Positions 50,462 through 64,000 of a stretch of 64,000 bases of DNA are shown here, in pieces (position 1 is the stretch's first letter; the number at the start of each line of letters is the position of its first letter). A model generated the notes under the pieces. The model ran no database searches. It was not told the origin of the DNA and saw nothing but the letters and a program-made list of their open reading frames with translations. The DNA comes from Crocinitomicaceae bacterium. Lineage in GTDB: Bacteria; Bacteroidota; Bacteroidia; Flavobacteriales_D; Crocinitomicaceae. Position numbers and translations under genes: made by a program. The DNA lies in the NCBI GenBank assembly GCA_023262855.1, contig JALQYQ010000047.1, forward strand, positions 1-64,000, given 5' to 3'.

Positions 50462-50956
50462 ATGAAAACGAACATTCTCCTTGTTTCGGAACAAATGCCG
50501 TATTTTAAATCTGTGGCTCTACGTTCTCTCCCTAGTCGCTACATTCACTTAGCTGAAGACTTAGCACAAGATGCCATCATCAAGTCAATCGAAAAAATTC
50601 ATTTGTACGATGCTTCGAAAGGCAACTTTAAATCATGGTTATTCAAACTTACTCAAAACCTTTGCTTTGATGCGGTTCGTAAACTGGATAAAATGAACGT
50701 TGTTCCAATGAGTATTGAGTTATTACATGACAAAGCTGATCATTCGAAAGAAATTCATCATGCTGAATTGAAAGTTATTCGCCGCGCAATGAAAAACTTG
50801 AATGAGCGCGATCGCCAATTGATCTTGTACAAGTTTGTCTTCAATTTAAGTGGTCGTGAAATGGCACAATTGCTTGAGATTCCAGAAGCACAAATCAACA
50901 CTTATTTCAAACGCGCCAAAATGCGCTTAGTTGAATTATGTGAAAAAGCAGCTTGA
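50462..50956 (+). CDS. RNA polymerase sigma factor, ECF-like (sigma-70 family)
   Basis: 164 residues. Region 2 covers LAEDLAQDAIIKSIEKIHLY (20 residues) and NFKSWLFKLTQNLCFDAVRK (20 residues), the promoter-melting part. Region 4 includes MKNLNERDRQLILYKFVFNL (20 residues), SGREMAQLLEIPEAQINTYF (20 residues) and KRAKMRLVEL. It lacks a clear neighbouring anti-sigma gene, unlike the sigma factor at 15861. Both are in the ECF size range but differ in sequence. The start ATG at 50462 is preceded by 200 bases of gene-free DNA. Confidence 0.88.
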   Translation: MKTNILLVSEQMPYFKSVALRSLPSRYIHLAEDLAQDAIIKSIEKIHLYDASKGNFKSWLFKLTQNLCFDAVRKLDKMNVVPMSIELLHDKADHSKEIHHAELKVIRRAMKNLNERDRQLILYKFVFNLSGREMAQLLEIPEAQINTYFKRAKMRLVELCEKAA

Positions 50957-51032
50957 TATTTCCTGATTGTTCAACCACTCTGCGGTTATTTCAATTCTTT
51001 TTTGACCACCTATCAATTATTTCCATTACCTC

Positions 51033-51692
51033 TTACTTCAAAAAATCATACACCTCATGGTGAATTAATCGCACGCGAATTCCAATTTCTTGACGGAAAT
51101 ATTTTTGTTCTGTACCGTTTATTGTTTCGGCAAATATTGGCGTGAAACCTTGACGATAAAACAAATCGTATTGGCGTGTTTTGCTGCGTGCTCGCTTACT
51201 TGCTGACGAATAATGGTGGTACAAGGATAAACCGATCTGACCTCCTACTTCACCGAATGATTCATTCGGATGTTCGCGCGTCCCTAACATGTAATGGTAT
51301 TCTGGCGCTACTATCAATCCTAATGAAAGGTAATGACAAACGCCATTGATTCTTTTGTTCATCAATTTGACCAAGCGCTTGTTGAAAATCAATGATGCAT
51401 CCAACGTATGACTTTCTGTCAAGGGAAATGAGGTGTTGCGCGCACCTGAATTTAAGAGATGTGAATACGTGTATCCAACACTTGGATAAATTCCACGCGA
51501 AACCATTGATATAAAACCAATACTTCCATTTACGTTAGTTAATGAGAATGGATCTCCTGCTTGTTTCAGCACTGACAATGGCTGAGCAGAAATATACATG
51601 CCATAATTCTTTCCTGTACGCTCATAAAATTGTCCAAATGCCGTTGTTCCAATTACAATCGTCAAAAGAGCTGAGATTATTTTTGCTTTCAT
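51033..51692 (-). CDS. Exported protein, probable outer-membrane beta-barrel
   Basis: 219 residues with signal peptide (MKAKIISALLTIVIGTTAFGQ, 21 residues with cleavage after FGQ or AFG). The mature part has alternating aromatic and polar residues (YGMYISAQPLSVLKQ; SLGLIVAPEYHYMLG; VGGQIGLSLYHHYSS) typical of beta strands of outer-membrane proteins and ends in IGIRVRLIHHEVYDFLK. The usual terminal Phe is not present at the very end. It follows the cell-wall-hydrolase-like gene by 5 bases, so it is in the same operon. No family can be named. Confidence 0.6.
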   Translation of the reverse strand: MKAKIISALLTIVIGTTAFGQFYERTGKNYGMYISAQPLSVLKQAGDPFSLTNVNGSIGFISMVSRGIYPSVGYTYSHLLNSGARNTSFPLTESHTLDASLIFNKRLVKLMNKRINGVCHYLSLGLIVAPEYHYMLGTREHPNESFGEVGGQIGLSLYHHYSSASKRARSKTRQYDLFYRQGFTPIFAETINGTEQKYFRQEIGIRVRLIHHEVYDFLK

Positions 51693-51697
51693 CTTTT

Positions 51698-53611
51698 CTA
51701 CTTTTTAGTTAATGTTCTAAATCCTACAACATGGTTTGATCCGTATTGACGAATGCAAACCTGATCATCTTGATTTCCGCCTAAACAGATGATTTCATTC
51801 GTGGTTTCATCTTTTCCTAAGTAAATTGCTACGTGGCCCTTCCATGAATCTGGATCTTCTCTCCAAAAAACAACAATATCACCTGGTTTTGGATTTGAAG
51901 TGGCTGTTCCTTGTTCTAACCAAGATTTGGCAGTCGCTTTTTTCGAATAAGAGAATCCTGCATTCTTCGCACAGTAGCCAACGAAAACACTGCACCATGC
52001 TTCCTCATCCGATTTGATTGAACCGTTTCCAGTTTCTTTGAAAAAGGTCATGATGGTCTTGTTATCTTGCTCACCTTCAATTTCCTTCACGCCAAAGTAC
52101 TTTCTTGCTTCTTGAATGAGTGGATGTTGCAACAAACTCGCATCTGAAAATTCCAATTCTGCCAATTCATTTAAGAATTTATCTGTTGACGATCCCCATG
52201 ACTCAATAACTGATTTACTACTTGTCGAAGTTGTCGAAACAAGAGCGTTTGCATTCAAAGTTTTTATAAGCGGTAAAGTCGGTCGTGATTTAACTATACC
52301 TTTTAAATACTCAGCTACTTCTAACTCTTCACTCCCATTGTTTTCAATGAAATATTGAACGACCATTCCATTTGGCAACTGCACACTCAATTGTCCTTTT
52401 TTAGCACTTATTGGAACAGAAACTAAGGTCTTTGCTCCTACTTGTTCATTCGTTACATTCGTTACGAGTTGAGGAGTTCCAAAACGATTGTTTATGTCAT
52501 TGAAATCCGTAAATGTTACTTTAACTCCAGAAATGTGTTGATCGAACAAAATCGCTACTTTTCCATTGGCTACCAATTGTTGCTTTGTTGGAAGAAACGA
52601 AATGTATGAAGTACTTTCTTTTACTTGCTCGACATATGCCAATTGATCAAATTGTTCGGATGTTATAGATTTCTCCAAGAGCTGATCTTCTTCCTTTAAT
52701 GGTAAGTGGGAATGAATCATGACCGATGGATCGACTTTTAACCATTTTTCATCCATTGAAGCATCGCTTAAGAGCGCTTGTTCGCCTAAATTGATTTGAT
52801 TCCATGCATGTGCTATTCGAACAAAGTTCTTTCCTTCCTTTTGTTTCTTATAGCCACGAATTGAACGCACATTCAAACCAGCCTTGTTGCCAAGTTGTGC
52901 AATTAATTCGGCCAATTCTAATCGATTCACCTTTCTATTTTCACCAGCAAGTTTTGTACGTAAATCATCAGAACTTTCATGTTGAAGATCAATGGAAGCT
53001 TCATTATCCAAATCTGTTTGTTTGTGGACAAATTCAACAATGGATTGATAGTTATTCCATTGAGAATGTCCACCTTTTGTAATCCATTTAGCCAAATCAG
53101 CCAATTCAATTTTTGCTGCTGCATCTTCGTTTCGAACGATACGCTGTGACAAAGGATCCAAATAAAAAGGGAAAGCGTATTTACTTTTATTGACTGTTTT
53201 CAAAAGGAAATCCTTCTTATTGAACATACTTTGAAAACGCGAAGTGTAAACTTTGTTATCGATGAAGGCAAATTCCTTTTTGTATAAATCACTTGAAAAT
53301 TCTTTGTCTGAAACCTTGAATTGAATTTTTCCAGCAGCAATTGAATACGTCCCGGAATTACGCTTAACAGTACTTTCATGCACTTCGGCCAACACTTCTT
53401 GGCCTTTATTGTACTTGCGCACAGGAACATACACAAGATGCTCGAAGGATTTATCTTGATACAAACGAATGAGTTCAGTTTCCTCTGTTGATTTTGATGG
53501 GACAAACACGTACTTGATTGCTGACTTGCTGATTTTCCAAGAAGTTGGTTTGGCTTGTAAGGTACTGATAGAAACTAATATTCCAATGAAGAAGATCAAT
53601 CCATTTTTCAT
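51698..53611 (-). CDS. Exported transglutaminase-fold protein with C-terminal TIGR02594 hydrolase-like domain
   Basis: 637 residues with signal peptide (MKNGLIFFIGILVSISTLQA). Residues about 170-290 resemble the transglutaminase-like fold: LAELIAQLGNKAGLNVRSIR (20 residues) then GYKK, the HAWNQI histidine motif and WLKVDPS with the Asp. The catalytic cysteine is missing: aligned back from LNVRSIRGY, an Arg (in VNRLELAEL) sits at the Cys position. The C-terminal 130 residues match the TIGR02594 CHAP-like family (EARKYFGVKEIEG, WCSVFVGYCAKNAGFSYSKK, PKPGDIVVFW, GHVAIYLG, GNQDDQVCIRQY), with catalytic Cys and His apparent. It is a likely periplasmic wall hydrolase or adaptor and the first gene of an operon with the 51033 gene. 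Confidence 0.82.
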   Translation of the reverse strand: MKNGLIFFIGILVSISTLQAKPTSWKISKSAIKYVFVPSKSTEETELIRLYQDKSFEHLVYVPVRKYNKGQEVLAEVHESTVKRNSGTYSIAAGKIQFKVSDKEFSSDLYKKEFAFIDNKVYTSRFQSMFNKKDFLLKTVNKSKYAFPFYLDPLSQRIVRNEDAAAKIELADLAKWITKGGHSQWNNYQSIVEFVHKQTDLDNEASIDLQHESSDDLRTKLAGENRKVNRLELAELIAQLGNKAGLNVRSIRGYKKQKEGKNFVRIAHAWNQINLGEQALLSDASMDEKWLKVDPSVMIHSHLPLKEEDQLLEKSITSEQFDQLAYVEQVKESTSYISFLPTKQQLVANGKVAILFDQHISGVKVTFTDFNDINNRFGTPQLVTNVTNEQVGAKTLVSVPISAKKGQLSVQLPNGMVVQYFIENNGSEELEVAEYLKGIVKSRPTLPLIKTLNANALVSTTSTSSKSVIESWGSSTDKFLNELAELEFSDASLLQHPLIQEARKYFGVKEIEGEQDNKTIMTFFKETGNGSIKSDEEAWCSVFVGYCAKNAGFSYSKKATAKSWLEQGTATSNPKPGDIVVFWREDPDSWKGHVAIYLGKDETTNEIICLGGNQDDQVCIRQYGSNHVVGFRTLTKK

Positions 53612-53720
53612 AGTGCGTAATTTTTGTTCGACATTTATAAAAAAGTAAAGATCTTTCCATCCGTTTGTTTTAGCTTGTTTCTAATAATACGCGTTGCTGA
53701 TTGATATGTAACAGTTGGTA

Positions 53721-53760
53721 GAAAAAAAAACTCGAACCAATTCATAATGGTCCGAGTTTT
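53721..53760 (-). terminator. Intrinsic terminator after the 53782 gene
   Basis: A 13-bp stem with one G-T pair (53727-53739 with 53748-53760) is followed on the minus strand by a T run. Confidence 0.85.
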
Positions 53761-53781
53761 AGCTTGTTGAATCGGCGGTTT

Positions 53782-55185
53782 CTAGATGAATCTTGGCGTA
53801 TTTTCTTTTGGCTGAATTAACTTTTCAAACTTGTCATAACTGAAGCGCTCGGTTACAAAATGAAATTTGTTTTCCAAAATCGGACTCAGTGTTGCAGCAT
53901 TTATTTTTGCACGAAAATCCTCTTTCGAAACGAATGCAACCGTTTTATCCGGCAAAATTGCAACTAATGAATAATCATTTTTTGTAATCGGAATGTGTTT
54001 CCAGTCGAATGCATTGAATTTAAAGACGGTACGTTCTTTTTCATCAATAACATACAGCATAACGCGATTAAAGGCTGGGTTCAATTCGTTTTCAAAATCG
54101 AAACTTAAGTTTACCGATGCCAAGATTTCAAGGCTTTTTAATTTATCGATGTTGTACACTCCAAATGAATTGATCTCAAATTTGTTTAATAACCCTGCTT
54201 CTAACTTCAAGCGTTCTTCTTCTTGATCAATTGCAGCGAATTCAATTTCATAAGCCACTAATTCCGTATTGTAAGCTAACACAGCATCCGCCAATTCACT
54301 CGCTGATAATTCAGGTCGCGCCTTCATGGAATATGTTTTTTCAATTATTTTACCGTCATAATCTGTTTGGAAGAACTTAAAATCCATTGTATAAACATTC
54401 GTTTCTTCATCTATTTTCTTCAAGGAAATCTTATCCCAATTGATGCGTAATGCTTCTTCTGGTTGCAGTCCTTTATCAGCAGAAACAAGTGTCCATTTTA
54501 CATCTTTCCACGCTTTCAAATGTGGCATACGTTTGTAATCGGACACCAATTCGAAAACAAAATCATTCGAATCAGCAACAGGATTTATTGGTTTATCTGG
54601 ACGTTCAGGTAAATTCGCCAAAGCGCTATCGCGACGAGCGTTTGGAATCGTCTCAAATGCAGCGCCATTGTCCCAATTTAAATTATCCGTTAAAAAATAA
54701 AGTTTAAAATCCGCATCAGGTTGAATCGCAGAAGCTAATTCAACGTCAACTTTTGCATCTTTTTTCAATTGAAGTTCTTCACCATTTTGTAGTACTTTCA
54801 ATTCCATCATACCTGCAGAAGCAAAGTATTTTTCTCGATCATCACCCGTTTGCATCGGAATACCTGATTGAAAAATCTCACGTGCATTTTGAAACTCACG
54901 GAAATTTAATTCCACTTTACCTTTAACTGGATTTCCATTTTTATCTATGAGTGCATTAGCTGGAATTACAATATGTGTTCCTGTCGTTTGATGAAAAACT
55001 GTTCCTTTTGAGGCATCAAATTCCTGCTTTTGAAAAGCTAAACTCTTCCCTAAAGGTGGGATAATTCCTTCGTCGTAATGTGACAATTTCAAATAAACGA
55101 TATAGCCCAATATACTCAGTGAACTCAAAATTATCGAGGTGAACAAAAATACTTTCTTCGTTCTTTTTATTTTTAAACTAGTCAT
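53782..55185 (-). CDS. Membrane-anchored large exported protein of unknown function
   Basis: 467 residues. A basic N-terminus (MTSLKIKRTKK) precedes a hydrophobic segment at about 13-31 that could be a signal anchor. Residues 55-130 show GTHIVIPANALIDKNGNPVK (20 residues) and GKVELNFREFQNAREIFQSG (20 residues), a beta-sandwich pattern shared by Bacteroidota surface proteins. The remainder has strands and helices such as ELSASELADAVLAYNTELVA (20 residues), with no catalytic motif. It follows the PQQ-type beta-propeller gene by 18 bases and forms an operon with it. Function not recognised. Confidence 0.65.
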   Translation of the reverse strand: MTSLKIKRTKKVFLFTSIILSSLSILGYIVYLKLSHYDEGIIPPLGKSLAFQKQEFDASKGTVFHQTTGTHIVIPANALIDKNGNPVKGKVELNFREFQNAREIFQSGIPMQTGDDREKYFASAGMMELKVLQNGEELQLKKDAKVDVELASAIQPDADFKLYFLTDNLNWDNGAAFETIPNARRDSALANLPERPDKPINPVADSNDFVFELVSDYKRMPHLKAWKDVKWTLVSADKGLQPEEALRINWDKISLKKIDEETNVYTMDFKFFQTDYDGKIIEKTYSMKARPELSASELADAVLAYNTELVAYEIEFAAIDQEEERLKLEAGLLNKFEINSFGVYNIDKLKSLEILASVNLSFDFENELNPAFNRVMLYVIDEKERTVFKFNAFDWKHIPITKNDYSLVAILPDKTVAFVSKEDFRAKINAATLSPILENKFHFVTERFSYDKFEKLIQPKENTPRFI

Positions 55186-55203
55186 AGTCTTGAATTTTTA
55201 AGG

Positions 55204-56550
55204 TTAGTCAATCAAATGATCTGTTGTGATTCCATAATCAAAACAATACAAGAAACCATCGTAGCAACCGATCAACGCATCGATCTTTCCATCTTTGTTG
55301 AAATCACGTAGTACAGGTGTAAATTCTGAGGAAGCCGGTAAATAAGCTTTCACATGAACTTTTCCACTGTTCAAACCAATGAGCATTAATGGTGATTGCC
55401 CTCGGTTTTGCAGGAAATCGTACTGAAATAAGACCACTGCACAGTCTTCGTTATTATAGCGTATTTTTTGCAGCGCAACTTGTCCGTCTCCGTAACGCGG
55501 ATAGATTTTTTCTTCATCCAATTTTCTAAAGGCGCTATCGATGGCTATGATTTTCAAATCATCTGGATTTTTACCCGGAACTAGGATGGATGTTGTTGTA
55601 AAAAATACTCCGTCAGTTTGACTGATTAAACTGTTGCCTAAATCACTATTCGCGTTGATGCGTTTAATCAATTTCCCTTTGGCATTGTAAAAGGCTATAC
55701 AGTCTTTACTTCCATCGTTTCGATTCCATTGCATCACCATCAATTGCGCTTTGGAACCTTCACCAATAATCAATGGTTTTTCTCGTCCCATATTCGAGAC
55801 AAAACCTGATTCTTCCTCTCGATCTATTGACCACAACATTTTTCCCGTATTTCCAGAAATTGCTATAAAACCACCCCAATTTGTGTTGTAAACGAGATCT
55901 TGAACAGCATCACCATTCAAGTCAACCAAACTTGGCTCGTTGAAAAAAATATTCGCTTCCGTAAAGTGCATCTTTACTTTAAATACTGTTCGGTTATCAC
56001 CTGGTTTCCAACCTTCAAAGTCTTGATGATAATACGACCAACGTTCCTTTCCCGTTTTTGCATCAACAGCAACAATTTGACCTGTTTCAGTCGCAAAAGC
56101 AATTGTCTTCTCTGTACCTGAATTAAATTGAACTGGTCTGTGTTCAATATCTCCGGAAGCAGGTATTCGCCATTGAATTGCGCCCAAAGCGTCCACACAA
56201 AGAAATTCTTCGTTATCATTTCCGAAGTAGAATTTTCCATCATAGCTCAGGATTCCATTCACATCCATATCACCAAATTGATCGTTGGCAAAATGAATTT
56301 TTTGAGCACCATTTGAAGCACTCAAAGCAAAGACACCGTTTCCATCGTCGATTGCATAATCACGAAAATGGCTACCATTTGAACCAATGTAAATCAAACC
56401 ATTTGATTCAACTGGAATTGTGCGGTAGCTGGTATTACCAATTTTGGCTTTCCAATGGTATTTTAATTCTGTTTTGAAAGTGCCACGTTTACCGGGTAAA
56501 GCAGCGCTGATGATTCCAATCACCAGCAGAAATAGAAGGAGTTTTTTCAT
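55204..56550 (-). CDS. PQQ-like beta-propeller exported protein
   Basis: 448 residues with a signal peptide (MKKLLLFLLVIGIISAALPG). Repeating blade strands are clear: GLIYIGSNGSHFRDYAIDDG (20 residues), GVFALSASNGAQKIHF, GQIVAVDAKTGKERWSYYHQ (20 residues), GGFIAISGNTGKMLWSIDRE (20 residues) and GKIDALIGCYDGFLYCFDYG (20 residues). VDLNGDAVQDLVYNT and RDFNKDGKIDALIG are FG-GAP-type calcium-binding loops as well. Propellers of this type are scaffolds or bind metal/PQQ; PQQ enzyme activity cannot be claimed. It is the first gene of the operon leading to the 53782 gene. Confidence 0.8.
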   Translation of the reverse strand: MKKLLLFLLVIGIISAALPGKRGTFKTELKYHWKAKIGNTSYRTIPVESNGLIYIGSNGSHFRDYAIDDGNGVFALSASNGAQKIHFANDQFGDMDVNGILSYDGKFYFGNDNEEFLCVDALGAIQWRIPASGDIEHRPVQFNSGTEKTIAFATETGQIVAVDAKTGKERWSYYHQDFEGWKPGDNRTVFKVKMHFTEANIFFNEPSLVDLNGDAVQDLVYNTNWGGFIAISGNTGKMLWSIDREEESGFVSNMGREKPLIIGEGSKAQLMVMQWNRNDGSKDCIAFYNAKGKLIKRINANSDLGNSLISQTDGVFFTTTSILVPGKNPDDLKIIAIDSAFRKLDEEKIYPRYGDGQVALQKIRYNNEDCAVVLFQYDFLQNRGQSPLMLIGLNSGKVHVKAYLPASSEFTPVLRDFNKDGKIDALIGCYDGFLYCFDYGITTDHLID

Positions 56551-56757
56551 ACTTTATGATTTAAATTAAACGTTCATGGAGAGTTTGAACTAGACTATAA
56601 CGGAAACATCAAAAATGTAACACGTAATAATTAAGCACTAACTAACGAGTAATTTTAAACCATACGCCTTGTTTGTTTATTATAGTACGAACGCATCGCG
56701 ATAATGTAACAAGGACTGAAAAAATATTTTTTGAATTAGAATTGAATTAGAAATGAA

Positions 56758-57744
56758 TTAAAAACTGTATAAATACCATTTTCCGTCTCGAAGAATAACA
56801 TTCATTTCTTCATTTACTTCACTATCATAGCCAAAAGTGACTGGAACTTTAGCCGTAATTTTTGTAACATATATAACCTCTCCAGTAACAGTTCCTGTTC
56901 CAAAAACACCACTAAATGCACTTTGCTCCTCTTCAGTAGCATTTGCAATTTGGCAAATACTTTTTGTATCACCATCATTTTCTTCCATTGGATCACAAAG
57001 GTTATACAATTCATAGTAAGCACCTGTATTTGCAACTTCGAAAATCTTTTCTACCAGCCAAACCGGATTGTCTCTCGGATCAACCTCTTCTTCTTCAGTA
57101 TATTCTACATCAAGAACCTCTTCGTCATCGATCGTTTCACCATCAGTTTCGTATACAATCATATCCTCCTCCTCAACTGGCATGAATTCAGTGCCTACCT
57201 CCAAGAAATAATCGAAATATTGCTCAATGTTAGAAAGCGTTACAACTTCCAAATTAAGCTGACCACTTTGTTCGTTAACTGTAAACGTATTTGATATCAA
57301 ATCAATCGTTTTTTCATAGGCTCCACTTTGCTCATAATTGCCTAAATAACTTTCTCCATATTCAATTAATCGCATATTCTTTAACGTTCTATCATACTTC
57401 AGAATCAACGATTTACCAAATCGGCCTACACCAAAAGAAGATGAAATAGTTAGAATACTATTTTCATAGGTAAAGTAATTCATATCACTTTCCCATGGAA
57501 ACCAATAATAATTGCCACTTACTTTATAACTTGAGCTAATGAATACCAATATGCAATAACCAAAATCTTCGCTTTCACATGTTACTATCAGATCTTTCGC
57601 TGCATCTCCGTCAAAATCAGCGGAAAGCGCTTGTGGATTGTTATCGTAATCAAAATACTGTGTAAAGTTCCCAGGTAATTCGTACTGCTGAGTCAATGCA
57701 AAACTTGAAATTGCAACGAAACAAATTAATAGTGCCTTTTTCAT
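56758..57744 (-). CDS. Exported FG-GAP-like protein with acidic linker and C-terminal NTF2-like domain
   Basis: 328 residues with signal peptide (MKKALLICFVAISSFALTQQ). Residues about 35-160 include SADFDGDAAKDLIVTCESED (20 residues), an FG-GAP/integrin-alpha-type loop. Residues 205-240 are strongly acidic (EEEDMIVYETDGETIDDEEV, 20 residues, then EYTEEEEVDPRD). The last 90 residues look like a small alpha/beta domain with GTVTGEVIYVTKITAKVPVT (20 residues) and a final ILRDGKWYLYSF strand as in DUF4878-like folds. It lies 21 bases downstream of the last kinase gene on the same strand, so it may belong to the kinase operon. Confidence 0.65.
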   Translation of the reverse strand: MKKALLICFVAISSFALTQQYELPGNFTQYFDYDNNPQALSADFDGDAAKDLIVTCESEDFGYCILVFISSSYKVSGNYYWFPWESDMNYFTYENSILTISSSFGVGRFGKSLILKYDRTLKNMRLIEYGESYLGNYEQSGAYEKTIDLISNTFTVNEQSGQLNLEVVTLSNIEQYFDYFLEVGTEFMPVEEEDMIVYETDGETIDDEEVLDVEYTEEEEVDPRDNPVWLVEKIFEVANTGAYYELYNLCDPMEENDGDTKSICQIANATEEEQSAFSGVFGTGTVTGEVIYVTKITAKVPVTFGYDSEVNEEMNVILRDGKWYLYSF

Positions 57745-57765: not shown

Positions 57766-59871
57766 TTAATCACAACCTTCAGTAGATTTTTCATGCTCAA
57801 ATAAAATTTCTTCTCCTTGATATATTTTTATAGACCAAATTGAACCGCCGACAGATAAATAGGAATCTAAATCGATTATTAATTCATCTGTAATGGATAA
57901 CTCGTCTTCAAGCTGGATCAATCGATCACTGCCAAGTTTTTCACGAATTTCTAAACGTAGGTTATCACCTGATCCTTTAATTCGGATTTTTTTATAATTA
58001 TCTCCATCAAAACTGCACAGCCCTGAATAACTTCCATTTTCAAACAACGTACTATTGCATGAATAGGATTCACTGTATTCACCTGATTCCTGATCATAAT
58101 CAGCGCATTCACCATCAATAAACTGTATCAAATCAATATCACCTTTTTCAAATTTGATTTCTGGATCTTCAGCACGTTGGTTTTTCAATTTGGATGAAAT
58201 ATCATAATTTAACAAATGACTTACCTCACTAATTGGCACACTAAAAGGTAAATTTCCTGCTGCTCCAGAAGCCACTTCATATTTATCATAAGAAAAAGTG
58301 AAATTTCCATTTTCGATATAGAAATTTTTCGGGCAATAAAACTGACCATTCTCAAAGGTGAATTCATAACCAAAGTCGGTTCCAACAGGACCTAAACCGT
58401 ATTGTTTTCTAAATTGTATTTCAGCAATTCCTGTGAAAATTTCGATATTACTGATGATATCTTGAAGACCAAGTACTTTTGCTGTTTCACGATCGACCAA
58501 CTTATATTCAGCCGCTTGCCAACCCGTTCCACCACACAAATATCCATACATATACATTTTTACTTGATCAAATTTTACAAAATTTGTATCAATCGAAATA
58601 GAATCATGAAGCTCTGATCCATATTCAATGTCTTGGCATTCAATTTCAGCATCACTTTTAGAAACGGATAAAAGCCTCTGTAAGAATTCTACACTTATAC
58701 TATCTTTCTGAAAGCTAAGCGTATCTTTTACAAATGAATTTTTAATCACAAATTCTTCGACCAAATCATTTACTTTACGCTGATATGGAAGTAATTCTCC
58801 TTCATCCGCTTGATAAAAGGCATAATAGGTGCTAAACTCTTTTCCTTCAGATACATAACCCTGCTGAATATGCCATTTATTCTCTGGCTCGGGATTAAAA
58901 AATGTAAAAGCTAAGAAAATACCAATCGCAGCAGCGGCAATTCCCAAAGTAATCCACAACCACGTTTTATTCTTTGTCTTTTCTACAGGTGTGTTCGTCG
59001 AATTAGAATGATTGACAACAGGCTTTGTGGGACTTGCTTTTGGGGTTAAAACAATTCCTTTTTTCAAATCCACAACTAATTCATCACACGATTGATAGCG
59101 CCCTTCACATTCCTTTGCTGTTGCTTTACATATGATATTCCACATTGAACGATAGTCAGTTCCCATCGTTTGTGTTAAGTCCAAAAGTGGCTCCTTTACA
59201 ATTCGGTCATAAATTTCATATTCCGTTGTAAACGATTTGTATGGACAAACACCCGTCAATAACTCATAAAACGTAACACCTAGTGAATAAATATCACTTC
59301 TATGATCCAATATTTGTCCACGCACTTGTTCTGGTGACATGTAATAAACAGTTCCAATTTGAGTTCCTGTTTTCGTTAATTGATGATTTCCTTCACCAAC
59401 CAATTTTGCAATACCAAAATCGAGTACTTTGATTTGATCATCCGCAGTAACAATAAAGTTGGAAGGTTTTACATCGCGATGAATGATTCCATTTTTATGT
59501 GCATAGATGAAGGCCTCAACGACTTGAATCATGAGCTTTTTTGCTCTTTCAATTGAAATCGGAGCCACTTGAGCCTTGATCAGCTCATCCAAGCCTTGAC
59601 CTTCCACGTATTCCATGATTAAGTACAACCCTCCATCCTGCTCCACGTAATCAATCAGACCAACAATGTTCGGATGCTGCAAATGCGCCAACATGGAAGC
59701 TTCATTTTTAAAGCGCAAACGAATTTCTTCATTTTTCACCAATTCAGGCTTTAACACTTTTATAGCTACTTTTCGTTTTATCGCAACATGTTCTGCTAAG
59801 TATACATCTCCCATTCCACCTTCACCAATAAGGGAAATAATCGTATAATTTTGAATTTGTTGGTTGATCAT
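57766..59871 (-). CDS. Membrane Ser/Thr protein kinase with DUF3298-like exported domain
   Basis: 701 residues. Kinase domain 1-275: GEGGMGDVY loop 16-24, K38 of VAIK, E57 of helix C, catalytic D133 in HRDVKPSN, D151 of DFG, activation segment with GTVYYMSPEQV. It is an RD kinase of the bacterial PknB type. After a linker, a membrane helix at about 303-325 (TWLWITLGIAAAAIGIFLAF, 20 residues) leads to an extracytoplasmic part of about 370 residues. Part of this resembles DUF3298 (GLQDIISNIEIFTGIAEIQF, 20 residues, then FTFENGQFYCPKNFYIENGN, 20 residues). It is the first of four adjacent kinases in sequence order and the last in transcription order, 21 bases before the 56758 gene. Confidence 0.92.
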   Translation of the reverse strand: MINQQIQNYTIISLIGEGGMGDVYLAEHVAIKRKVAIKVLKPELVKNEEIRLRFKNEASMLAHLQHPNIVGLIDYVEQDGGLYLIMEYVEGQGLDELIKAQVAPISIERAKKLMIQVVEAFIYAHKNGIIHRDVKPSNFIVTADDQIKVLDFGIAKLVGEGNHQLTKTGTQIGTVYYMSPEQVRGQILDHRSDIYSLGVTFYELLTGVCPYKSFTTEYEIYDRIVKEPLLDLTQTMGTDYRSMWNIICKATAKECEGRYQSCDELVVDLKKGIVLTPKASPTKPVVNHSNSTNTPVEKTKNKTWLWITLGIAAAAIGIFLAFTFFNPEPENKWHIQQGYVSEGKEFSTYYAFYQADEGELLPYQRKVNDLVEEFVIKNSFVKDTLSFQKDSISVEFLQRLLSVSKSDAEIECQDIEYGSELHDSISIDTNFVKFDQVKMYMYGYLCGGTGWQAAEYKLVDRETAKVLGLQDIISNIEIFTGIAEIQFRKQYGLGPVGTDFGYEFTFENGQFYCPKNFYIENGNFTFSYDKYEVASGAAGNLPFSVPISEVSHLLNYDISSKLKNQRAEDPEIKFEKGDIDLIQFIDGECADYDQESGEYSESYSCNSTLFENGSYSGLCSFDGDNYKKIRIKGSGDNLRLEIREKLGSDRLIQLEDELSITDELIIDLDSYLSVGGSIWSIKIYQGEEILFEHEKSTEGCD

Positions 59872-59896
59872 CCTTTTATATATAATTTGTTTAAAG

Positions 59897-61390
59897 TTAC
59901 CTGTAATCTTCGAAATGAAGATCTGTTACTTTTAATTCGCGGTAAGAAACAAAATTAAAGTTTTCATCGATACCTAATTCCACTTTAATCTTACAATATT
60001 GGTACATTTCCTTTGATGTGCGATAGCAGGAGAAATCCACCCAATACGTCCAATAATCTATCCCGTTTTCTTTACGGTCAAATTCAATTTCATCATTTAT
60101 AACACTTGCTTCAGACGCCACATATTCTGTATTGTTCTGATGATTTTCATTCAACTTATCTGGATTTGTGTTTTTCCAATTGATAAATTGTAGAATATCT
60201 GCAGCATAAAAATCCCAAGCATCATAAACTGTAGAGCCAACTGCTGAATAATATCGTTCAACTTTGTTTTTCACCTGGCCATATGGATAAAAAGGTTCTT
60301 GAATTTCTTGTTCAATTTCCTCAAGTGAACCATTTGTACTTTCCGTATTTACCTGAGTGCTTGTGCTATCGATTGGTTGTTGATTTAATTCACTTTCAAT
60401 TGGCTCATCAGATGGTTTAGTTTGCTGCCAAACGAAATAACCAATACCTAATACAGCAACGATAATTAAAACAATTAACCAAGCTTTGCTTTTCGATTCT
60501 TTTTTAACAGGAACAGAATCAACTGTTCTTACAGTTTGTTGAATTGGTTTAACCACTTTCGGTGCTTCAACAAGTTCTTTCTTCAAGTCTGAAACAAAAT
60601 CAACACACGATTGGTAGCGATCATTTAGTTCTTTTGCTGTTGCTTTTGAAATGATGTTCCACATCGATCGATATGCGCTACCCATGGTTTGCGTTAAATC
60701 GAGTAATGGCTCTTTAACGATGTTGTCATAAATCTCATATTCTGTTGTCATTGATCTGTATGGACACACGCCTGTCAAAAGCTCATAAAACGTAACACCC
60801 AATGAATAAATATCACTTCGATGATCTAAATTTTGACCTCTCACTTGTTCTGGAGACATGTAATAAACCGTTCCAATTTGTGTACCTGTCTTGGTTAAAT
60901 GATGATTTCCTTCACCAACCAATTTAGCGATTCCAAAGTCTAGAACTTTTACTTGGTCGTCAGCTGTAACAATAACATTGGAAGGTTTTACATCGCGATG
61001 AATGATTCCATTTTTATGCGCATAAATGAACGCCTCGACGATTTGAATCATCAGCTTTTTTGCTCTTTCAATTGAAATCGGAGCCATTTGAGCTTTAATC
61101 AGTTCATCCAATCCTTGTCCTTCAACGTATTCCATGATTAGGTACAAACCTCCATCCTGCTCAACATAATCAATCAGACCAACGATGTTGGGATGTTGCA
61201 AATGCGCCAACATGGAAGCCTCATTCTTGAAACGTAAACGAATTTCTTCATTCTTCACCAATTCAGGTTTCAATACTTTGATTGCAACTTTGCGCTGAAT
61301 TGAAATGTGTTCAGCTAGATAAACGTCTCCCATTCCTCCTTCTCCGATGAGGGAAATGATTTTATAGTTTTGAATTTGTTGGTTGATCAT
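59897..61390 (-). CDS. Membrane Ser/Thr protein kinase, close paralog of the 57766 gene
   Basis: 497 residues. The kinase domain (1-276) is almost the same as that of the 57766 product: by eye about 25 of 276 residues differ (roughly 91% identity), with the catalytic K38, D133 and D151 shared. Beyond it, a helix at about 305-325 (AWLIVLIIVAVLGIGYFVWQ, 20 residues) leads to a different and shorter extracytoplasmic region with a Glu/Thr/Ser linker and a cap ending VSYRELKVTDLHFEDYR. The two probably arose by a recent duplication or by gene conversion of the 5' half. It lies 25 bases upstream of the 57766 gene. Confidence 0.92.
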   Translation of the reverse strand: MINQQIQNYKIISLIGEGGMGDVYLAEHISIQRKVAIKVLKPELVKNEEIRLRFKNEASMLAHLQHPNIVGLIDYVEQDGGLYLIMEYVEGQGLDELIKAQMAPISIERAKKLMIQIVEAFIYAHKNGIIHRDVKPSNVIVTADDQVKVLDFGIAKLVGEGNHHLTKTGTQIGTVYYMSPEQVRGQNLDHRSDIYSLGVTFYELLTGVCPYRSMTTEYEIYDNIVKEPLLDLTQTMGSAYRSMWNIISKATAKELNDRYQSCVDFVSDLKKELVEAPKVVKPIQQTVRTVDSVPVKKESKSKAWLIVLIIVAVLGIGYFVWQQTKPSDEPIESELNQQPIDSTSTQVNTESTNGSLEEIEQEIQEPFYPYGQVKNKVERYYSAVGSTVYDAWDFYAADILQFINWKNTNPDKLNENHQNNTEYVASEASVINDEIEFDRKENGIDYWTYWVDFSCYRTSKEMYQYCKIKVELGIDENFNFVSYRELKVTDLHFEDYR

Positions 61391-61406
61391 TTTTTAATAC
61401 AATAGA

Positions 61407-63083
61407 TTAAAATTTACGAATTGAACGAACATTACAAATTTCATATTTATAACCACTTCCACTGCTTACATATTCACTACAATTTTCATGTGATAATGAT
61501 TGCAAAGATGGAAAATCTCGCCATACAGTTGAACTCCAATAACGACCACAAACAATACCACTTATTAATTTACTATTATCTGCCATTTTTCGCAGTTCAT
61601 CTGAAGATGGCAAATACCAATCAGAATAACCATTCATATTAAGTTTTTCACAAATACTCATTGCTTCATCCCAATTATATTTTCCTTGATCAATTGTCAT
61701 ACATACTAATCCATGTTCTCCTGTATTATCTATGTAAAAAATTATTCCTCCTTGGTGTTTTTGTCCAACTTTTAATTTAATTGACTTTTCAATAACTTTT
61801 TCTTTTTGTTTAATGTTTTGATCAGACTTTGAGGTAAGTTCATCGGTTTTATCAATAGTTACTTTTTGCTTTTTAATATTATCATCAATACCCTTAGAAT
61901 CATTCACTTTATCATTTATTGCTCTTTTTTGAACAGGACTAAAAGTTGAATTCTGATTCCAATAAATAAAAGCAAAAAATGCGATTAGAAAAATGATTCC
62001 AATCCATACATATTTTTGATTAATTTTTGTGGTTAAGGCTGTTGATTTAGCCTGCATCTTTTTTTCTCTCTCTTCTCTATTTCGAGCCATTTCATCTGCA
62101 ACTTTTTCGATTTCCTTTAACTTTTTATTTTGAGTTATCGCAAATAACTGCATCTTTTTTTCTCTTTCCTCTCTATTTACAGCCACTTCATCTGCAACTT
62201 TTTGAATCTCTATTAGCTCTTTTTCGTAGACAACTTCTGCAAGTGCCTTCGATTCCTGCTTCGAAAGTAAATCATTGAATTTTGCATATGATGCCAACTC
62301 TCTAATTTCATCAAAATCACTTCTACCATAGATATCCTTGCTTGTTGTAGACTTGATGACATCATCCCAGCCCGTATTCGTCAACGGAAGTGGTTCTTTC
62401 ATAATGCCCACTTGAATTTCTGGAAGCGTTAATGCATCGGCGTCATAAGGTTTTTTATTCATGACCATTTGCCATAGTACAACCCCTAAACTGTAAATAT
62501 CTGTTTGTGGGGTTATTTCAGACGTATTTCTTACTTGTTCCGGACTCATGTACATGGGTGTTCCCATTTGCTGCGCCATGCTAGTTTTTGTATAGTCAAC
62601 GGCGCCGTCGTTCAAGTTCTTTGCAATCCCAAAATCCAGTAATTTGACACTTTCATCAGGCGTCACCATGAAATTGGAAGGTTTTATATCGCGATGTATT
62701 AAACCTTGTGAATGCACATACTCAACAGCATCAATCATTTGCAGAAACAATTTCTCAATCGTTTCATGTGATAAAGGCGAATTATCTGAAATATATTGTT
62801 CCAATGAAACCCCTTCAATATTTTCCATTACAAAAGCAACAATATCGCCCGCGTCGATTAGATCAGTCACTTTTATTATATTCGGATGCTGCATCTTCGC
62901 CAGATTTCGTGCTTCTGCTAAAAATCGTTTGCGAATATTGGGATGCTGTACGAATTCATCTTTCAATAGTTTGAATGCATATTTTTGACCCAATGTTAGG
63001 TGCTCCACTAAATAAACATTTGCCATTCCTCCTTCACCCAAAAGAGAAATTATTTTGTAATTATGTATTTGTTGGTTTAACAT
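61407..63083 (-). CDS. Membrane Ser/Thr protein kinase with coiled-coil repeat and DUF1566 (Lcl) exported domain
   Basis: 558 residues. The kinase domain (1-265) has K38 (YAFKLLK), the HRDIKPSN and DFGIAKN motifs, and a PEQVRNTS activation end, all intact. Residues 290-345 contain a duplicated charged segment: VADEVAVNREEREKKMQ and VADEMARNREEREKKMQ, likely coiled coil. A membrane helix is at about 353-371 (YVWIGIIFLIAFFAFIYW). After a basic linker, the C-terminal DUF1566/Lcl-like domain reads KVGQKHQGGIIFYIDNTGEH (20 residues), then GLVCMTIDQG, MNGYSDWYLPSSDELRKMAD (20 residues) and GRYWSSTV. It is a sensor kinase with a lectin-like or carbohydrate-related ectodomain. Confidence 0.9.
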   Translation of the reverse strand: MLNQQIHNYKIISLLGEGGMANVYLVEHLTLGQKYAFKLLKDEFVQHPNIRKRFLAEARNLAKMQHPNIIKVTDLIDAGDIVAFVMENIEGVSLEQYISDNSPLSHETIEKLFLQMIDAVEYVHSQGLIHRDIKPSNFMVTPDESVKLLDFGIAKNLNDGAVDYTKTSMAQQMGTPMYMSPEQVRNTSEITPQTDIYSLGVVLWQMVMNKKPYDADALTLPEIQVGIMKEPLPLTNTGWDDVIKSTTSKDIYGRSDFDEIRELASYAKFNDLLSKQESKALAEVVYEKELIEIQKVADEVAVNREEREKKMQLFAITQNKKLKEIEKVADEMARNREEREKKMQAKSTALTTKINQKYVWIGIIFLIAFFAFIYWNQNSTFSPVQKRAINDKVNDSKGIDDNIKKQKVTIDKTDELTSKSDQNIKQKEKVIEKSIKLKVGQKHQGGIIFYIDNTGEHGLVCMTIDQGKYNWDEAMSICEKLNMNGYSDWYLPSSDELRKMADNSKLISGIVCGRYWSSTVWRDFPSLQSLSHENCSEYVSSGSGYKYEICNVRSIRKF

Positions 63084-63092
63084 TTTCCCAAC

Positions 63093-64000
63093 TTAAATAT
63101 TTGCCAAAATGGCAATTGTGATAAAAAAACCGAGCAGGGTTGTTATACTACCAAGCACAATTCCTGCAATCCCTAATCCTTTGTTGGATGCATCATTGCC
63201 ATTTTTATCTTTTTGTCCATTAATTCCAAGCACCAAAGCAAGTACGCCAAGAATGAGTCCTAAAAATGGAAACCAGAACATTAGAATACCAAGTATCCCT
63301 AAAATCAATGCTGCAGTGGATGCTCCATTATCCATTGAAGGTTGAACAAGTTGGTTGTTAGTGCTTGAAGTAATTTTAGGGGGAGCTTTAGGAGCTTGAG
63401 TATTGGTTACTTGTTGCTCTTTTTTAATCAAAGCTTGCTTGAATTGTTCACAAGATTGAAAACGTGTATCAGGATCCTTTGCGGTCGCTTTGTTCAGAAT
63501 ACTAACAATCGCATCACTTATGCCAGGATTTACCAATTTTGGATTCGGCAATTGTTCTTGTACAATTTTCGAATACACTTCAAATTCGGTTGTACATGAA
63601 TTATAGGGATTTTGAGCCGTTAACATTTGGTAGAACGTGACACCTAATGAATAAATATCCGATCGTGCATCGACTTTTTTTCCTTGAACTTGTTCGGGAG
63701 ACATATAATAAACGGTGCCAATTTGGGTTCCCGTTTTTGTCATATTTTGCAAACCATCGCCATCTACAATTTTAGCAATCCCAAAATCCAATACTTTGAT
63801 TGTACCATCATTTGTAATTAGAATATTGGCTGGTTTAATGTCTCGGTGAACAACTCCTTTTTCATGGGCATGCGAAAAAGCATCAAGTAATTGTTTCATG
63901 AAAGCAGCGGTAACATCTTCATCTAAAGGACTACCAATGTTTCGAAGATAGGTCTCTAATTCAACACCATCTACTAATTCCATGATTAGGTACAATCCAT
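63093..64000 (-). CDS. Membrane Ser/Thr protein kinase with DUF4190-like C-terminus (5' end outside window)
   Basis: The gene runs off the right end, so the Gly-rich loop and catalytic Lys are not visible; about 302 codons are seen. The visible kinase part has LETYLRNIGSPLD, VVHRDIKPANILI, KVLDFGIAKI, GTVYYMSPEQVQGKKVDARS (20 residues) and the SLGVTFYQML helix. After a Pro/Ser/Thr-rich linker, two hydrophobic stretches (AALILGILGILMFWFPFLGL, 20 residues, and GLGIAGIVLGSITTLLGFFI, 20 residues) form a DUF4190-type membrane end with KGLGIAG. It has no large ectodomain, unlike its three neighbours. It ends 9 bases before the DUF1566 kinase. Confidence 0.88.
   Translation of the reverse strand, partial: GLYLIMELVDGVELETYLRNIGSPLDEDVTAAFMKQLLDAFSHAHEKGVVHRDIKPANILITNDGTIKVLDFGIAKIVDGDGLQNMTKTGTQIGTVYYMSPEQVQGKKVDARSDIYSLGVTFYQMLTAQNPYNSCTTEFEVYSKIVQEQLPNPKLVNPGISDAIVSILNKATAKDPDTRFQSCEQFKQALIKKEQQVTNTQAPKAPPKITSSTNNQLVQPSMDNGASTAALILGILGILMFWFPFLGLILGVLALVLGINGQKDKNGNDASNKGLGIAGIVLGSITTLLGFFITIAILANI

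Follow-up and report, generated by a model that had tools for sequence, protein, structure and literature searches.

The 64,000-nucleotide stretch of DNA examined here (hereafter the window), which comes from an uncultured Crocinitomicaceae bacterium, ends in four consecutive genes for membrane Ser/Thr kinases, designated K1 to K4. It corresponds to C34:1-64000 of a draft genome of 3.28 Mb in 73 contigs, and its coordinates are identical to those of the contig. With a probability of approximately 0.6, we judge that K1 to K4 serve as the variable input tail of a single locus for phosphothreonine signalling. They form the end of a larger same-strand locus that extends to contig position 81,682 (approximately 56,758-81,682) and that encodes seven kinases, a PP2C phosphatase and five FHA proteins. 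Seven of the eight Pkinase matches in the genome fall within 57.8-81.7 kb of the contig. A preliminary description of the window had proposed one signalling core with several inputs. As an architecture this proposal is supported by a conserved core, a variable array and kinase domains that are joined to unrelated C-termini, whereas the flow of signals through these parts is something that we infer.

How bacterial Ser/Thr kinases gain inputs while keeping their outputs is, in our judgement, a largely open question. Here, different sensors accompany a kinase half that undergoes homogenisation or exchange, and the FHA proteins and PP2C that are the likely readers and eraser are part of the locus as well, such that a few proteins should suffice to test input specificity and output sharing. 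More tentatively, the kinase half may be a cassette that moves within and between genomes onto unrelated sensors, with gene conversion maintaining its compatibility with an FHA hub that includes a zinc-ribbon-like protein carrying a multi-copy phosphothreonine docking array. Such a system would be a bacterial counterpart of receptor-kinase arrays, although the odds of this fuller proposal fall a little short of even.

Four kinases with different C-terminal ends

The four open reading frames are separated by gaps of 25, 16 and 9 bases, as had been reported, and all four exceed the Pkinase cut-off. K1 (57766..59871, on the reverse strand, as are all genes of the locus) is an RD kinase (Pkinase, 191.4 bits) with one transmembrane (TM) segment at approximately positions 307-325, as judged from hydropathy, and a periplasmic DUF3298 domain (38.0 bits; cut-off 24.1). 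The C-terminal part of K1 matches the PDB entries 3cyg (E 1.8e-4), 3s5t, which is a DUF3298 structure (E 0.032), and 5jen, which is RsiV (E 0.11). K3 (61407..63083; Pkinase, 177.2 bits) carries a C-terminal Lcl_C (DUF1566) domain (36.5 bits; cut-off 34.9). K4 (63093..64238, or L009:13093-14238; Pkinase, 207.7 bits) terminates in a DUF4190 membrane region (41.0 bits; cut-off 35) and has no ectodomain; its start at contig position 64238 lies 238 bases past the end of the window. Thus, the three named C-terminal domains that had been predicted all pass their Pfam cut-offs.

The fourth C-terminus, which had been described as an unnamed cap, belongs to K2 (59897..61390), a membrane kinase that also exceeds the Pkinase cut-off. 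No Pfam family matches this short region. A weak structural model of the cap (mean predicted local distance difference test score, pLDDT, of 45.5) has its best fold matches among cystatin-derived affimers (Z 8.1) and NTF2 domains (Z of approximately 6). In addition, K2-like relatives from two other genomes, G003 and G002, match SnoaL_2 below the cut-off (E 0.0021 and 0.0088). (Relatives' genomes and loci are given as G and L numbers, and G000 is the window's own genome.) The fold matches at Z 6-8 and the SnoaL_2 scores hint at an NTF2-like fold, but are not decisive.

The kinase domains had been considered closely related. This is true of K1 and K2, which are 91% identical in this region, but not of the other pairs: K4 is 54-55% identical to K1 and K2, and K3 is 41-47% identical to the other three. 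A reading as four closely related kinases is therefore set aside. All seven kinases of the locus are Hanks-type, in that they exceed the Pkinase cut-off and carry the Lys, HxD and DFG motifs. The glycine-loop pattern does not match the soluble kinase K6, and residues K38, D133, N138 and D151 are conserved without exception across the 50 aligned kinases. No PASTA family was found among the Pfam matches of these 50 kinases at E 0.001, and the two kinases scanned against the NCBIfam model for PASTA kinases (Stk1/PknB; cut-off 450) score only 317.2 bits (K2) and 247.3 bits (K6).

Exchange of kinase halves between genes

There are 79 matches in the kinase set, as counted without G427. The tree of kinase domains has 68 rows, the pair count 53 and the alignment 50 (52 references less two cut genes, with three more genes absent that span the boundaries of fetched pieces). 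All three exclude every G126 kinase, one distant G017 gene and cut genes, and the pair count and alignment also exclude kinases shorter than 300 amino acids, hence K6. At the score used, the C-termini of 55 kinases fall into seven multi-member groups, one of which joins the K1 and K2 types, and 17 singletons. Among the 50 aligned kinases, Pfam finds DUF4190 in 10 C-termini, Lcl_C in eight, TSP_3 in seven and DUF3298 in three, whereas YARHG, TonB_C, DUF1036 and BatD occur once each.

There are 33 pairs of kinases whose kinase domains are at least 85% identical. The C-termini of 16 of these pairs have no homology at E 1e-3, and the remaining 17 retain related C-termini. Lack of homology is observed for five of six pairs located on one contig piece and for 11 of 27 other pairs. 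In the tree, near-identical kinase domains likewise bear unrelated ends, although several of the deeper joins are open or on long branches. For example, a G002 kinase with a YARHG end (20913) clusters with the K4 clade. Similarly, a G294 kinase with a C-terminus of the K7 type (34265) is the sister of another kinase from the same array (22049), which has seven predicted TM helices (support 100/99; kinase domains 93% identical; synonymous divergence, dS, of 0.36).

The clearest case between genomes involves the kinases G003 4960 and G007 14990, whose kinase domains are 97% identical (dS 0.31) and whose C-termini are 27% identical. The exporters of the same two genomes are only 65% identical, with a dS of 2.91. 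Within G007, the kinase domains of 30549 and 26103 are 94% identical with a dS of 0.49. Because six comparisons of core genes between genomes yield dS values from 1.4 to saturation, the values of 0.31-0.49 in the clearest pairs indicate exchange rather than mere conservation of the protein. The 21 pairs used for dS and the eight pairs used for identity profiles were picked by hand, and the z values that follow, for which the numbers of sites were approximated, are therefore descriptive only.

Among the K1 orthologues of G000 and G002, the synonymous difference is lower in the C-terminus than in the kinase domain (0.49 versus 0.67), and the same is true of the K2 orthologues (0.62 versus 0.78). 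This pattern fits the overwriting of kinase halves by paralogues. The window's K1-K2 pair, when compared with the K1 orthologues, gives a weak signal of the same sign (z of approximately 1.9). Within G007 and within G002, the kinase domains of paired genes resemble each other more than those of orthologues do (rough z of 7.0 and 6.6). In the eight profiled pairs, blocks of identity extend from the start codon to approximately codon 210-300, and in seven of these pairs the 200 bases upstream are unrelated (24-35% identical). The exception is the pair formed by G003 4960 and G007 14990, which also has upstream DNA in common (85%). Comparison of these draft-genome sequences shows that new inputs are acquired when a kinase gene is duplicated or imported and the same kinase half becomes joined to another sensor half.

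A diversity-generating retroelement was considered as a source of the Lcl and FISUMP domains and is not supported. The draft genome has a single Pfam reverse transcriptase match (RVT_1), which is located outside the locus on contig C9; template and variable repeats were not searched. This match (G000:C9:15334-15756, L091) sits in a frame of 992 amino acids.

A conserved core followed by a variable array

The profile of the VWA-FHA protein, used as the marker of the locus, has matches in 6 of the 26 genus genomes, the window's own among them, and core fragments are also carried by G011 and G019. In an even order-wide draw there are matches in 10 of 299 genomes, four of which are from the window's genus, and in a draw from the phylum there are matches in 2 of 395 genomes, one of which is the window's own. 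It had been suggested that absence of the tandem from near relatives would make it incidental. The distribution is indeed patchy, yet the core order is kept where the core is present. This order is zinc-ribbon FHA protein, VWA-FHA protein, PP2C, K6, M48 protease, LEA2 protein and exporter, and it is found in all eight islands that span the core (G000, G002, L068, G007, L074, G294, G278 and G258). The core of G189 lacks the LEA2 gene.

The region after the exporter is variable, with zero to nine kinases. There are five such kinases in G000, six in G002, seven in G003, nine in G007 and five in G294, and there are at least four in G001 and at least one in L074, where contig ends intervene. Ahead of the core, a kinase and a FISUMP gene are present in G000, G002, L068 and G294, and a kinase and an unnamed gene are present in G258.

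Several observations weigh against the proposal that the array supplies inputs to one locus. In addition to the patchy distribution within the genus, the leading genes vary, in that no kinase adjoins the start of the core in G007 and L074 (where FISUMP is present) and G278 has a leading kinase and no FISUMP. No kinases follow the exporter in G278, G258, G427 and G189, which indicates that the array is dispensable for the core; in G189, two further kinases are located on the opposite strand and face the core. The kinase domains of K3, K4 and K5 are merely 40-55% identical to those of K1 and K2 and to one another, and shared substrates are thus less certain for these three kinases. Scans for promoters (48 found versus 52.2 expected) and terminators (9 found versus 7.3 expected) perform at chance level and thus give no indication of a single transcript. 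Furthermore, dS is not low in every swapped pair: it is 1.13 for K1 and K2 of the window, 1.97 for K1 and K2 of G002, and 1.04 for K4 of G000 versus the YARHG kinase of G002. These exchanges with dS values of 1.04-1.97 are either older or undecided. Finally, some of the swaps at approximately 90% DNA identity could reflect chimaeric assembly, given that the named sources are metagenome bins.

Some of these points favour an incidental tandem duplication, wherein kinases with separate targets piled up beside a kinase-rich locus and owe their similarity to recent duplication. The distance of K3-K5 from K1 and K2, the four genomes that have the core and no array, and the chance-level promoter and terminator scans would all be expected. 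However, this explanation does not readily account for near-identical kinase domains that occur repeatedly on unrelated C-termini, between genomes as well as within them, or for the pairs within G007 and G002 whose kinase domains are more alike than those of orthologues. Moreover, the array follows the exporter in the five genomes with a readable end and starts there in the truncated G001 and L074. We therefore consider incidental duplication unlikely, and prefer the interpretation that the kinases are an input tail.

Somewhat less probable still is a recognition or defence array, wherein the variable ectodomains would recognise phage, neighbouring cells or toxins and an output through FHA and PP2C would alter the envelope or kill the cell in the manner of kinase-phosphatase defence modules. 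The patchy distribution, the variable array and the swapped sensors are suggestive of such a role, and the KKP system demonstrates that sets of kinase and phosphatase genes can provide defence (PMC11341870). In PADLOC, the kinase models PD-T4-6 and mad6 score the three kinases scanned, PDC-M21C scores the PP2C, mad3 the exporter and ZorB the OmpA part. However, the kinase matches lie mostly over the kinase domain and appear generic, and no complete named system is present, which led us to reject assignment to a named defence system. The OmpA, M48, LEA2 and weak LysM (E 0.021) components point instead to the envelope. The VWA-FHA marker has no plasmid match and no confirmed match in viral contigs, and on this basis the locus was also rejected as a mobile element.

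An assembly artefact, in which kinase domains from mixed strains were fused into chimaeric genes, would be in keeping with the origin of eight of the eight named relatives as metagenome bins and with the multiple markers of one incomplete bin (G001), but is very improbable because the window's K1 and K2 share 83% of their kinase-domain bases while their C-termini are 78% and 76% identical to those in G002, and because the C-terminal classes reappear in independent assemblies.

These eight relatives were retrieved with one marker and are labelled Crocinitomicaceae, Flavobacteriales or, for two of them, Chryseobacterium gleum. We guess that the latter labels are erroneous and that the bins are of freshwater origin. 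The bin G001 is 64% complete and has four marker matches on contigs C26, C129, C178 and C216 (L047-L050), reflecting either several loci per genome or mixed strains. A degenerate-looking locus with several kinase fragments is present in another family (G126:C24, L089/L090). Upstream of the core in L074 (L074:1524-8625) are three large non-kinase proteins of 901, 482 and 978 amino acids, whose C-terminal ends resemble FISUMP or the Lcl part of K3.

Hub proteins, neighbouring genes and known systems

The locus begins with K7 (81682-79979), a kinase with TSP3 repeats and a DUF4190 match below the cut-off, and a FISUMP protein (80022-79150). The next gene encodes an FHA protein (79138-78449) that is labelled zinc-ribbon-like on the basis of its Cys pattern. 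In this protein, T41, T58, T73 and T94 are invariant in eight of eight aligned orthologues, even though they lie inside a variable linker. The motif T-x-[VI]-F-G is present in 15 of 17 orthologues, the exceptions being G278 and G258. The related pattern [KR]T-x-[VI]-x-G occurs 48 times in the 3,713 residues of the orthologues, versus five times in 142,022 residues of other island reading frames. The repeated Thr-x-Val-Phe-Gly motif constitutes a specific phosphosite prediction.

The following gene encodes the VWA-TM-coil-FHA protein (78437-76872). The window's copy has no VWA match at E 0.1. Of three orthologues scanned, that of L048 passes the VWA cut-off (27.1 versus 23.8), that of L086 falls just below it (23.0) and that of L041 has no match. 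A model of this part (mean pLDDT 55) resembles VWA or integrin-I-like folds (best Z 9.6; root-mean-square deviation 3.4 over 150 residues), and we take this part to be a VWA domain. Signs of a role as a regulator of a type VI secretion system are confined to weak scores: TagH scores 38.6 bits against a cut-off of 120.25, and the TssO and TssR scores are weak. A search for TssD found matches in none of the 26 genus genomes, but is uninformative because no positive control responded.

Next are a membrane PP2C (76855-75320), which passes the NCBIfam Stp1/IreP model NF033484 (239.1 bits; cut-off 230) and whose weak LysM tail is below the cut-off, and the soluble kinase K6 (75314-74505). All 13 orthologues of K6 are of the non-RD type (HLD or HMD), whereas every one of the 63 other kinases in which the motif can be read is RD; four more have no readable motif. 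PknG is likewise classed as non-RD. An FHA-M48 protease (74508-73255) follows. In G007, L074, G294 and G011, it is followed by another M48 peptidase gene, this one lacking FHA (L041:10527-11330; L074:15239-16045). A non-FHA M48 gene stands alone in G258, whose M48 protein has no FHA match, and in G427, where a small FHA gene is separate.

The core is completed by a LEA2 protein (73216-72311) and a double-FHA ABC exporter (72318-69922; L010:5922-8318), in which Pfam finds FHA in two stretches, ABC_tran and ABC2_membrane. In the linker of the exporter, 10 of the 12 aligned orthologues carry an [ST]T[ND]I sequence motif. Beyond it are K5 (69913-68153), a small FHA-TM protein (68131-67709) and a PD40/VWA/OmpA protein (67766-64347), which is separated from K4 by 108 bases. 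Therefore, extension past the window reveals that the kinase tandem is interrupted by this gap and gene, but that the locus resumes with three more kinases.

Each membrane kinase probably responds to a cue of its own from the envelope or periplasm by way of its C-terminus. The observed RD motif and threonine-bearing loop suggest that activation would occur by phosphorylation of activation-loop threonines. The kinase domains would then phosphorylate a common set of threonines, for which the best candidates are the T-x-[VI]-F-G repeats of the zinc-ribbon-like protein together with the TT[ND]I-like motif located between the exporter's two FHA domains. The FHA domains of the exporter, the VWA-TM-FHA protein, the FHA-M48 protease and the small FHA-TM protein would dock on these phosphothreonines. 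By analogy with the Rv1747-PknF-PstP system, which serves as our model for exporter clustering, docking would cause the exporter and protease to be clustered or activated. The soluble K6 may maintain or amplify the mark, and the membrane PP2C, which possibly has a LysM tail, may remove it.

In Mycobacterium tuberculosis, Rv1747 has an FHA-ABC architecture and forms condensates that are driven by PknF and reversed by PstP (PMC9312465), and it shares an operon with pknF (PMC3908365). Similarly, the exporter described here comprises FHA, linker, FHA, nucleotide-binding domain and transmembrane domain in one protein, as is evident from 12 aligned orthologues, and is encoded beside membrane Ser/Thr kinases and a PP2C. 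Unlike that system, the locus has as many as nine kinases, whose sensors differ, includes its phosphatase, and adds four more FHA proteins as well as VWA and M48 parts. Clusters of kinase, phosphatase and FHA genes have already been described in M. tuberculosis (PMC1262709).

OdhI and GarA carry an ETTSVF peptide to which the FHA domain docks, and the activation loop of Corynebacterium PknG is open without phosphorylation (PMC8546545). The zinc-ribbon-like protein resembles these regulators in having a single FHA domain preceded by a motif of the T-x-V-F type, and comparison of its FHA domain with GarA and OdhI chains yields E values from 1e-4 to 8e-4. It differs in its N-terminal zinc-ribbon-like segment and in having several copies of the motif in most orthologues, and its score of 24.6 bits does not reach the NCBIfam OdhI cut-off of 200.

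The KKP system of prophages contains kinases fused to CSD and FHA together with a PP2C (PMC11341870). The locus also combines a PP2C with more than one Ser/Thr kinase, but has membrane sensors and many FHA partners, and none of the genes read points to a prophage. There is no CSD or FHA match in its seven kinases or among the families of the 50 kinases. A 2020 survey of conflict systems describes linked genes for kinases, PP2C and standalone vWA proteins (PMC7159879). The same three types are linked here, although the VWA protein is membrane-bound and fused to FHA; neither GTPase nor MoxR was noticed among the locus genes, with no search aimed at either. Searches of the open-licence literature brought up no title or abstract opening that suggests this locus or a conserved FHA-VWA-PP2C-exporter core combined with kinases that swap sensors, which does not prove its absence.

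At the other end of the locus, an exported-looking protein (56758..57744) lies 21 bases beyond K1, as the preliminary description had stated in putting it forward as a possible sensor or target. The FG-GAP resemblance attributed to it was not recovered, since searches against Pfam (E 0.1) and NCBIfam (E 0.001) assign it to no family. The adjoining gene (55204-56550) has PQQ_2 over the cut-off and FG-GAP merely at E 0.029, below the cut-off. The exported-looking protein is present in 2 of 26 genus genomes, both of which bear the island, and its absence from the other holders means that it is linked to the locus in one genome pair only. A block of genes for a CHAP protein, a PQQ-propeller protein and others (50462-56550) adjoins the island in G000 and G002. 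Because the block occurs in G013 and G009 as well, two genomes in which the VWA-FHA marker was not detected, the island probably ends near 56.7 kb, with its inferred downstream edge at 56551..56757.

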